A DNA stretch of 64,000 bases from Alphaproteobacteria bacterium (GTDB lineage Bacteria; Pseudomonadota; Alphaproteobacteria; Micropepsales; Micropepsaceae). The position numbers and the translations under genes are program-made. The notes beneath the pieces are model-generated. The model was not told the DNA's origin. It made no database searches and saw only the letters and a list, made by a program, of their open reading frames with translations. Position 1 is the stretch's first letter; every line of letters starts with the position of its first letter. Shown piece after piece: positions 9,280 to 60,235 of this stretch. The stretch lies in NCBI GenBank assembly GCA_947473475.1, contig CANJBZ010000001.1, positions 186,001 through 250,000 of the forward strand. The letters run 5' to 3'.

Positions 9280-9350
9280 CTCCCCCTCACCGCCTCGCTC
9301 CGCTCGGCTCCTCTCCCCCTCCGGGGGAGAGGGTGGGGTGAGGGGGCGGT
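9280..9350. repeat. Palindromic repeat, 'C' type
   Basis: A C-rich arm followed by a G-rich arm (CTCCCCCTCACC ... GGTGGGGTGAGGGGGCGG) with an inner CTCTCCCCCT/GGGGGAGAGG hairpin. A shorter version is at 57015-57056. It lies between hyuB and the dehydrogenase gene. The latter has its own AGAAGGAAAAC ribosome binding site, so here the repeat is not needed for translation. Confidence 0.75.
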
Positions 9351-18857: not shown

Positions 18858-18862
18858 CCTCG

Positions 18863-18989
18863 ACCCTCCCCTTGAGGGAGGGTCGAAATTGCTCGCCCAT
18901 TGCGAGCAATTTCGGGGATAGGGAACCGTCGACTGTCCCCTCCCCGAAATTCGCTGACGCAAATTTCGACCCTCCCTCAAGGGGAGGGT
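18863..18989. repeat. MITE-like palindromic element, divergent copy
   Basis: A 127-base element with perfect 28-base terminal inverted repeats (ACCCTCCCCTTGAGGGAGGG then TCGAAATT), each end also forming its own hairpin. The interior holds a second inverted set around AATTTCGGGG and CCCCGAAATT. It has the same architecture as the copies at 32851-32998 and 52726-52879, with a different end sequence. It ends 10 bases before the start codon of the next gene, whose GGGAGG ribosome binding site directly abuts the element. Confidence 0.8.
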
Positions 18990-18999
18990 GGGAGGTTTT

Positions 19000-32031: not shown

Positions 32032-32847
32032 TTATCGCGACAGGAAGCGGATCGCCAATTCGTTGAAGCGGTCGGGCAGATCGATGTGGGGGAAGTGGGC
32101 GGCTTCTTCGAAGACGGCCAATTCGGAGCCGGCGATTTCTTGTTGTAGCTCGGCGGCATAACCGGGTTCGCGCAACGGGTCTTTGCCGCCCGCGACGATC
32201 AGCGTCGGCCGCTTGATGGCGCGGTAATCGATGTTTTCCTTTTCGCCGCCCTTCACGCCTGGACGCCGGAAGCGAGCCGCCGCCGTGCATTCCCAAGACC
32301 CCGGCACCAGCGACAGCCGGTGCCGGCGATCAAGATAGTCTTCATCGTCGCGCAGAGGCGTGACCAGCAGCGTGGTTTGCAGGATGCGCTTCATGTGCTC
32401 GCGCGTGCCGTCATAGGAATTCAGGATTTGCCGGGCCTCATTCACCGGCGCGAAGCCGCCCGACGATGCGAGTATCATTTTGTCGATGGGCCAAGCGAGA
32501 TTATCGTGCGCCGCGACTTGTGCCAGCAAGCCGCCCCCCATGGAATTGCCGACGAAATGCGCGCGTTCGATGCACAGCGTTTTCAGCAGCGCCGCTATGT
32601 GCTGAACCCGGAGCGTCCGCATGTCGTCAAAGCTGAACAGCTTGGCGCTTTCGCCGAAGCCCAGCCAATCCGGCGCAATGACGTGGAAATGTTCGGCCAA
32701 TGCAGGCGCGGTGAATTCCCAGGACAATTCGGCGCAACCGCCAAACTCGCCGGAATGCAACAGCACGACATGCGGCCCACGCCCGCCTTCGAAGAAGTGC
32801 GTGCGCATGCCGTCGATGTTCAGGAATTTGCTTTCCAGTCCGAGCAT
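32032..32847 (-). CDS. Alpha/beta hydrolase (C-C bond hydrolase-like)
   Basis: A 271-residue alpha/beta hydrolase. The nucleophile elbow is GNSMGGG, the oxyanion region is LLHSGEFGG, and the catalytic histidine is in EAAHFPHIDLP near the C-terminus. The pattern resembles meta-cleavage product hydrolases of aromatic degradation. Its ribosome binding site is GGAGGTGA, seven bases before the ATG, and this is supplied by the end of the palindromic element that lies directly upstream. Substrate unknown. Confidence 0.85.
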   Translation of the reverse strand: MLGLESKFLNIDGMRTHFFEGGRGPHVVLLHSGEFGGCAELSWEFTAPALAEHFHVIAPDWLGFGESAKLFSFDDMRTLRVQHIAALLKTLCIERAHFVGNSMGGGLLAQVAAHDNLAWPIDKMILASSGGFAPVNEARQILNSYDGTREHMKRILQTTLLVTPLRDDEDYLDRRHRLSLVPGSWECTAAARFRRPGVKGGEKENIDYRAIKRPTLIVAGGKDPLREPGYAAELQQEIAGSELAVFEEAAHFPHIDLPDRFNELAIRFLSR

Positions 32848-32850
32848 ATA

Positions 32851-32998
32851 ATCACCTCCCCCTTGCGGGGAGGTCGAAATGTTGAAGCGGCGTCAGCCGC
32901 GAGGCATTTCGGGTGGGGGGATTGTTCCGGATGGCTCCCCCCACCCGAAATTGCTCGCTGCGCTCCCAATTTCGACCTCCCCGCAAGGGGGAGGTGAT
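32851..32998. repeat. MITE-like palindromic element with Shine-Dalgarno-bearing ends
   Basis: A 148-base element with perfect 30-base terminal inverted repeats: ATCACCTCCCCCTTGCGGGG then AGGTCGAAAT. Each end forms its own CCTCCCC-GGGGAGG type hairpin. Read outwards, both ends finish GGGGGAGGTGAT, which matches the bacterial anti-Shine-Dalgarno sequence almost fully. Inside is a second inverted set (GGGTGGGGGG / CCCCCCACCC). A close copy is at 52726-52879, a divergent one at 18863-18989, and a solo end at 60209-60235. No coding sequence is inside. Confidence 0.85.
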
Positions 32999-33030: not shown

Positions 33031-34218
33031 TTATTCCGCGGCGATGGCGATGGGATCGGGTTGGCGTAGTTCTTTCAGGCGCGGGTAGACCTCTTTGGCG
33101 AAGATTGTGAGGTTTTCCACCGTGTCTTCGTGAGACATCGGTCCGGCATGGCCCATCATTAGGAGATTTCCCATACCGCCGCAGTGACCCACGAAGTCTT
33201 TGATCTGGTCATAAACCTGATCGGGCGTGCCGCAGAACAGAACGCCGGCATCGATCAAATCCTGCACGCTGCCCTTGGCCATTTCGATAACGCGGCCATC
33301 CTTGGTGTAACTGCGCGGCTTGCCTTCACCCTTCAGCATACGGACGTTGTCTTCCATCGACAGGTAGCCCGGCGGATTGCGGAACGGCGCAAACACGATG
33401 GCCGAGGACCGCGGATAGGTCGCGATCAACTCGCCGCGTCGGCGGGCTTCCGCCTCGGTATGGCCGATGGCGACGAATCCAAGATAGCCAAACCGGTCGG
33501 CGGGCGCCGCCGTGCCGAATTTCTGCGTGTAGCCTTTGCGGTACGCGTCATAGAGACGGCGCGTATCGTAACCCGTGCCGAGCGTCGCCATGACATAGCC
33601 ATAGCCCCCGAGCTTAATAGCGGTCTGTGTGCTGCCCGTTGTGCTCCAAACGGGAGGATGCGGCTGCTGATAGCACCGAGGCCACACGTTCACGTGGCGA
33701 TAGTTGAAGTTCTCGCTCTCCCAATTGAACGGCTCGTCGTGGGAGGTCAGCGCCTTCATGATGAAATCATGCGCTTCCCAGAAGCGGTCCGACTGAAACA
33801 CCGGATTCATGTTGGCAATCGGCACTTCCTGCGGCACGCCGCGCACGAAGCCCATTTCCAAACGCCCACGCGAAATCACGTCGATCATCGCCAATTCTTC
33901 CGCGGCGCGCAGGGGATCGGGACGGTTGGCGATGGGGTAACCCAGCACCAGCAGGCGCGCGCGTTTGGTGATGCGCGCCAGCACCGACATGCCGACGACC
34001 ACGGCCGCGCTCATGCAGGTCGCGGTGGCGTGATGCTCGTTGAGCATGATGTCCAGGCCGAGTTCGTCGGCGAGCTGCCATTCGTCGTAATAGCGTTCGA
34101 ACAGATCGGCCGCGTGCTTGGGATCGAGCTTGCGGTTGGGCAGATTCACGCGGAGCGAACCGTTATGGTCGTTCCACGCGTCCGGATAGGGCTGCTCCGT
34201 GAATTGGAAGACTCTCAT
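33031..34218 (-). CDS. LLM-class flavin-dependent (luciferase-like) monooxygenase
   Basis: A 395-residue luciferase-like oxidoreductase using reduced flavin. Landmarks are LGLDIMLNEHHATATCMS early, LGYPIANRPDPLRAAEELAM, and DVISRGRLEMGFVRGVPQE with the RLE-GFVRG pattern of this class. Family members oxidise alkanesulfonates, nitrilotriacetate or ring compounds. Its start overlaps the stop of the upstream hydrolase gene (ATGA) and a GGAG precedes it, so it is coupled. The gene pair is divergent from two IclR regulators. Confidence 0.92.
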   Translation of the reverse strand: MRVFQFTEQPYPDAWNDHNGSLRVNLPNRKLDPKHAADLFERYYDEWQLADELGLDIMLNEHHATATCMSAAVVVGMSVLARITKRARLLVLGYPIANRPDPLRAAEELAMIDVISRGRLEMGFVRGVPQEVPIANMNPVFQSDRFWEAHDFIMKALTSHDEPFNWESENFNYRHVNVWPRCYQQPHPPVWSTTGSTQTAIKLGGYGYVMATLGTGYDTRRLYDAYRKGYTQKFGTAAPADRFGYLGFVAIGHTEAEARRRGELIATYPRSSAIVFAPFRNPPGYLSMEDNVRMLKGEGKPRSYTKDGRVIEMAKGSVQDLIDAGVLFCGTPDQVYDQIKDFVGHCGGMGNLLMMGHAGPMSHEDTVENLTIFAKEVYPRLKELRQPDPIAIAAE

Positions 34219-52725: not shown

Positions 52726-52879
52726 ATCACCTCCCCCATGCGGGGAGGTCGAAATGCTGAAGCGGCGGCAGCCGCAGAGGCATTTCGGGCGGGGGTATTG
52801 TTGCGGATAGCTCCCCCCACCCGAAATTGCTCGCGTTGGCACGCTCCCAATTTCGGCCTCCCCGCAAGGGGGAGGCGAT
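52726..52879. repeat. MITE-like palindromic element, copy
   Basis: A 154-base copy of the element at 32851-32998. Its ends are ATCACCTCCCCCATGCGGGG and an outer GGGGGAGGCGAT, with a T-to-C change in the right end that weakens the Shine-Dalgarno match. The inner GGGCGGGGG/CCCCCCACCC palindrome is kept. It is 55 bases from the hydroxylase start, too far to serve as its ribosome binding site. Confidence 0.85.
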
Positions 52880-57014: not shown

Positions 57015-57056
57015 CCCCTCTCCCCCTCGGGGGAGAGGGTTAGGGTGAGGGGGCGG
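57015..57056. repeat. Palindromic repeat, short 'C' type, at a gene start
   Basis: CCCCTCTCCCCCTCGGGGGA and GAGGGTTAGGGTGAGGGGGCGG: the hairpin core of the repeat seen at 9280-9350. It ends ten bases before the likely GTG start of the binding-protein gene and supplies the only G-rich stretch that could act as ribosome binding site. Confidence 0.75.
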
Positions 57057-60208: not shown

Positions 60209-60235
60209 ATCACCTCCCCCTTGCAGGGAGGTGAT
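60209..60235. repeat. Solo end of the MITE-like element
   Basis: ATCACCTCCCCCTTGCAGGG followed by AGGTGAT: a self-complementary unit equal to one terminal repeat of the element at 32851-32998. It lies 12 bases after the BKACE stop and may act as a transcript-end hairpin or be a leftover of a deleted element. Confidence 0.75.

Follow-up and report, generated by a model that had tools for sequence, protein, structure and literature searches.

The window, the whole 64,000-nucleotide stretch of DNA analysed here, carries on its minus strand an alpha/beta hydrolase gene and, upstream of it in the same operon, a luciferase-like monooxygenase gene, with a palindromic element lying in the 183-nt gap between them (Table 1). 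The hydrolase gene has an intact frame (271 amino acids; Pfam Abhydrolase_1, 1.2e-22), and its orthologues share the same start position. Read on the minus strand, the hydrolase start is GGGGGAGGTGATTATATG, in which 3 nt (TAT) separate the element from the ATG and 7 nt separate GGAGG from it; ahead of this ATG no strong Shine-Dalgarno-like sequence occurs other than the element end. An initial annotation, made from the sequence, had reported here a mobile-like palindrome of 148 bases with 30-base terminal inverted repeats, ending three bases before the ATG and placing a properly spaced signal there, and had interpreted the ends as portable ribosome binding sites. The description held up and the interpretation did so only in part, as set out below. 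The element proper begins at 32851; the start given earlier, 32847, took in the start codon of the gene.

Anatomy of the element

The ends, at 32851-32880 and 32969-32998, match each other perfectly as inverted copies of ATCACCTCCCCCTTGCGGGGAGGTCGAAAT; either one reads outward as GGGGGAGGTGAT. Each terminal repeat is itself a hairpin with an 8-bp GC-rich stem (ACCTCCCC-loop-GGGGAGGT, -17.6 kcal/mol), and the full 148 nt have a fold energy of -115.7 kcal/mol (z, -13.4), with end-to-end folding possible. In this layout the two small GC-rich REP hairpins, inverted with respect to each other, enclose a palindromic interior, and either strand can therefore fold into one long branched hairpin. The usual 16S tail is ATCACCTCC, and GGAGGTGAT, carried outward by the ends, is its perfect complement (9 nt), as the initial annotation had all but stated in calling the ends a nearly full anti-Shine-Dalgarno complement. 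The outward GGAGGTGAT is one side of the end-hairpin stem, its 3′ arm, and is sealed by the 5′ arm.

Table 1. Genes, element parts and further copies in the window (positions are those of the window).
Feature	Positions	Strand	Remarks
Alpha/beta hydrolase gene, with the element as its leader	32032-32847	-	
Luciferase-like monooxygenase gene, upstream partner in the same operon	33031-34218	-	Stop 32 nt from the element
Whole palindromic REPIN-like element, 148 bp	32851-32998	.	Three internal hairpins between a REP end and its inverted counterpart
Left terminal inverted repeat, 30 bp	32851-32880	+	Hairpin ACCTCCCC-CTTGC-GGGGAGGT; minus-strand reading ends in GGGGGAGGTGAT
Right terminal inverted repeat, identical to left	32969-32998	-	Outward GGGGGAGGTGAT toward 3′ end of luciferase-like gene; no start codon
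Internal hairpin CGAAATG...CATTTCG, inner GCGGC/GCCGC	32875-32911	.	
Central hairpin GGTGGGGGGA...TCCCCCCACC	32912-32946	.	
Internal hairpin CGAAATTG...CAATTTCG	32946-32974	.	
GGAGGTGAT, in hairpin stem	32851-32859	-	GGAGG 7 nt before ATG 32847
Second full copy, 154 bp, 90% identical	52726-52879	.	Inside cupin-dioxygenase/FAD-monooxygenase gene pair
Second-subfamily full copy, 133 bp	18860-18992	.	Ends CCACCCTCCCC; without outward GGAGGTGA
Solo end, symmetrical hairpin ATCACCTCCCCCTTGCAGGGAGGTGAT	60209-60235	.	Between convergent genes

Copies, hairpin conservation and gain of the element

The initial annotation had noticed two more full copies and one solo end in the window, all of which were confirmed (Table 1), and had proposed searching the genome for the end. 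In the draft genome (3.87 Mb, 99% complete), 50 places matched the 27-base end at ≤3 mismatches, and the reversed pattern, run as a control at the same threshold, matched nowhere; this contrast and the fold energy both lie far outside what chance would give. The stretches read held about 34 full copies (29, plus 5 with a second-end loop one base longer) and 6 partial or solo ones; 38 of these 40 elements were intergenic by the gene calls used here. Full copies mostly measured 133-165 bp, and identity to the nearest copy within the genome ranged from 83 to 96%. One full copy was 77 bp long; this shortened element (L085 4023-4099, G000:C10:23022-23098) kept both ends, and most of its interior was gone. 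Related copies were also carried by congeners and family members. The exact 30-mer had no match outside this genome in a scan of genome contigs, and the 24-mer core was found in 77 stretches from Parvibaculum, Afifellaceae, Rhodobiaceae, Rhizomicrobium and other records, almost all alphaproteobacterial.

Two further repeat designs were seen. In L083, L097, L098, L100, L102 and L103, an outer inverted repeat (GGGCTATCGCATATT ... AATATGCGATAGCCC) lay beyond the 30-bp ends, so that the element also exists in an extended form exceeding 200 bp. A separate GC-rich hairpin repeat, CCTCTCCCCCTCGGGGGAGAGGGTTAGGGTGAGGGGG, which is built much like the REP ends, occurred in the window at 9310-9332 and 57017-57038.

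Across 42 distinct ends the stem covaried (A4-T24 to G-C, T7-A21 to C-G, C8-G20 to T-A), and stem cells were paired in 94.6% of cases (69 ends in the stretches read) versus 51-63% for slid partners. The outward letters differed between copies (GGAGGTGAT, GGAGGTAAT, GGAGGCGAT), and subfamily variants held the hairpin pairing while GGAGGTGA became GGAGGCGA or GGAGGTAA. Because subfamilies change GGAGGTGA yet keep the pairing, the hairpin is taken as the conserved feature; judged from this comparison of ends, it is kept by selection or copying, and the CCTCC/GGAGG stem brings the likeness to a Shine-Dalgarno sequence with it. One arm of such a stem is automatically an anti-Shine-Dalgarno and the other a Shine-Dalgarno sequence, so that any REP of this kind gives the impression of exporting a ribosome binding site.

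Comparison of orthologous loci, also proposed by the initial annotation, gave two congeneric hydrolase orthologues without the element. With the same gene order, congener G006 has a 4-nt overlap (ATGA) between upstream stop and hydrolase start, and the two genes stand 24 nt apart in congener G003; neither GGAGG nor GGAGGTGA is present in the hydrolase leader of either. The gene pair around the 52726-52879 copy recurs in congeners G001 and G005, where the gaps are 10 and 12 nt and hold no element. Since the syntenic loci are element-free in congeners, both copies were most simply gained by insertion, and with about 40 dispersed copies in the genome the palindrome is, as first described, apparently mobile. 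Before the insertion the luciferase-like monooxygenase and hydrolase genes overlapped or lay close together, to go by their arrangement in relatives, and were probably translationally coupled. The insertion split this operon pair, and because it landed 3 nt from the start, the element end now provides the hydrolase with its only strong Shine-Dalgarno-like sequence. The locus offers a clean natural case of a repeat-split operon pair.

None of 15 well-preserved copies had a target-site duplication of 2-9 bp, which fits REPINs and equally other routes. It speaks against a classical MITE (of a DDE insertion sequence), which the 30-bp terminal inverted repeats and the size of 130-155 bp might otherwise suggest; as the terminal repeats are covarying hairpins, the hallmark of REPs, and solo hairpins exist, we consider a MITE quite improbable. 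No Y1/RAYT transposase gene (PF01797) was found in this genome (0 matches; 99% complete). Congeners G003 and G004 have copies and no RAYT, G014 and G012 have RAYT and no copies, and among relatives presence of the element does not track presence of a Y1/RAYT gene. We infer REPIN-like movement from the anatomy of the element, which would spread non-autonomously.

REPINs, or REP doublets, were described with REP-to-REP peaks at 71 and 110 bp in P. fluorescens SBW25 (Bertels and Rainey 2011, PMC3116915). The present element resembles them in its two inverted REP hairpins, preferred spacing, spacer, intergenic position and ability to fold as a single strand (PMC3116915), and also in its lack of target-site duplication and the presence of solo ends. 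It differs in its length of about 148 bp, its structured and palindromic interior, its copy number in the tens rather than hundreds, and a host genome without a RAYT gene. It is best described as REPIN-like (REPIN/BIME-like), not as a REPIN proper, because its layout matches that of REPINs and BIMEs but its genome has no RAYT. The CGTC- and GTAG-tagged REPs (Di Nocera 2013, PMC3733652) likewise have alphaproteobacterial hosts, an 8-9-bp stem, a 5-nt loop and inverted dimers, whereas the stem of our element is flanked by TTTCG, with no tag, and its tail is GAT, not CCA. Br-REP1 and Br-REP2 of Bradyrhizobium (PMC5082802) similarly combine several stem-loops and lie in 3′ regions of alphaproteobacterial genes, but their consensus sequences are unrelated.

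Placement relative to genes and availability of the GGAGG

Genes were called with a home-made codon-usage caller trained on the stretches read, and the starts are those of the caller, uncurated. Shine-Dalgarno spacing was defined as GGAGG 4-10 nt from a start, and the null placed the same elements uniformly in the same gaps. The 38 intergenic elements of this genome present 30 start-facing ends, only one of which, that of the hydrolase copy, has this spacing; the null mean was 3.4 (P of 1 or fewer, 0.10), and there was no enrichment. In other alphaproteobacterial genomes (121 ends, 44 start-facing), the spacing was found at 1 of 44 ends, where a less refined estimate predicts about 1.7. Within tandem gene pairs, elements lay on average 41 nt from the stop versus 130 nt from the start (P, 0.002), and the median distance from element to stop was 29 nt. 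Divergent gaps held 2 of the 38 elements though they make up 29% of intergenic bases (binomial P, 0.0005 by bases; by gap number the deficit is not significant, P, 0.16). At one further element (L105 4184-4333, G000:C17), an end overlaps a called start (GGGGGAGGTGATG); a normal ribosome binding site would need more than the 2 nt of spacing present there, and the start call itself is uncertain.

These counts bear on the proposal that GGAGGTGAT faces outward under selection, since insertions near starts would create or raise translation. A perfect 9-nt anti-Shine-Dalgarno complement, ideal spacing at the hydrolase, hydrolase orthologues without the signal, and a genome that uses GGAGG-type signals (36 of 274 genes at the right interval versus 5 in the control interval) all speak for it. 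Ends are no more frequent 4-10 bases from starts than chance predicts, however, and element placement favours stops over starts, the signal is sealed within a hairpin, and its extension GGAGGTGA differs among subfamilies. The placement test refutes the portable ribosome binding site as a general property, and selection of the outward sequence for such a role is highly improbable. No precedent for repeats supplying ribosome binding sites was found in the literature searched. Repeats can mimic regulatory devices, and a placement test tells look-alike from function.

The stop-proximal placement might instead point to an RNA hairpin that acts at the 3′ ends of transcripts, by protection or termination; elsewhere in bacteria, REP hairpins have been reported to stabilise upstream mRNA and to affect termination (cited in PMC5082802). 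The same bias would follow equally well if purifying selection removed insertions close to promoters and starts, and no U-run follows the end hairpins of the 32851-32998 copy or the solo end at 60209; we regard action at the transcript level as unlikely. With strong confidence we read the element as a non-autonomous dispersed repeat of the REP-doublet type, tolerated mainly, and chiefly just, downstream of genes, whose outward Shine-Dalgarno likeness is one arm of a hairpin and sealed in it.

Whether ribosomes could use the GGAGG at the hydrolase was modelled. The 16S tail pattern had no match in this genome (≤2 mismatches) or its genus (exact), probably because the drafts lack rRNA genes; since the tail was not found in the draft, the identity of the anti-Shine-Dalgarno rests on general knowledge and on the enrichment of GGAGG ahead of starts. 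Within the start-facing set, GGAGGTGAT has the strongest predicted duplex (-17.6 kcal/mol). Its GGAGG, paired within the end hairpin as the 3′ arm, has a modelled unpaired probability of 0.001; among the other genes, which served as controls, the median was 0.32 and the 5th percentile 0.016. Net initiation energy (duplex energy plus unfolding cost, in a model without co-transcriptional folding, helicases or ribosome traffic) placed the hydrolase at rank 133 of 274 when just the local hairpin forms, and at rank 263 of 272, among the worst 4%, when the element folds in full. The predicted net benefit of the GGAGG is average at best, and because the Shine-Dalgarno-like sequence is base-paired, initiation at the hydrolase is most likely ordinary to low, not boosted.

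It is conceivable, and we hold it as a tentative reading, that at this single locus the end has been captured and functions as the ribosome binding site of the hydrolase, with access perhaps depending on whether the hairpin opens. The overlapping genes of G006 and the 24-nt gap of G003, neither with GGAGG, are consistent with such a capture, as are the widened gap here, the intact frame and the lack of any other strong Shine-Dalgarno sequence before the ATG. The model leaves room for it with the local hairpin alone, where the net energy is not prohibitive, and argues against it with the whole element folded; moreover, chance alone should produce one such landing in about 30 tries. Local capture is compatible with the reading of the element as a dispersed REP-doublet-type repeat. 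Of the role in translation first suggested, what stands is that the element supplies the only strong Shine-Dalgarno-like sequence before the hydrolase; the general idea of a portable signal falls to the placement of the copies and to their hairpin.

Overlap with the whalefall-1 RNA family

Both halves of the element match Rfam family RF01762 (window 32852-32920, plus strand, and 32937-32997, minus strand), as does L193 1501-1557. This family, whalefall-1, is catalogued as a noncoding RNA whose known occurrences are confined to whale-fall metagenomes (PMC2864571). We found 54 matches in this genome, 28 of which have an inverted partner within 60 bp. Scores were 22-24 bits for the window copy, 33.5 for the best match in its own genome and 39.0 in one relative, against a gathering score of 37. 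Matches occur in congeners and family members, one of them above the gathering score, and there was none in the searched genomes of other families of the class (G019-G025) or in 14 controls.

Like whalefall-1, the half-element consists of the end hairpin, a CGA/CAGA link, a GA...UC hairpin and then GGGUGRGG; unlike it, the window copy scores below the RF01762 gathering score, and whalefall-1 is described as an sRNA. From this likeness and from the frequent inverted pairing of its matches, whalefall-1 may be half of a dispersed palindromic DNA repeat family and not an sRNA, and the Rfam family may need reclassifying as a genomic repeat, given its overlap with the element. A wider account, in which the repeat broke an overlapping or closely spaced and probably coupled gene pair and its end hairpin took on the role of a structure-gated ribosome binding site, and in which, separately, whalefall-1 is a half-palindrome and not an sRNA, is possible as a whole, though we would put it forward only with reserve.

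Matches to Rfam MIR1858 were also obtained; they lie far under the family cut-off and were rejected, as they reflect no more than the long GC-rich hairpin.
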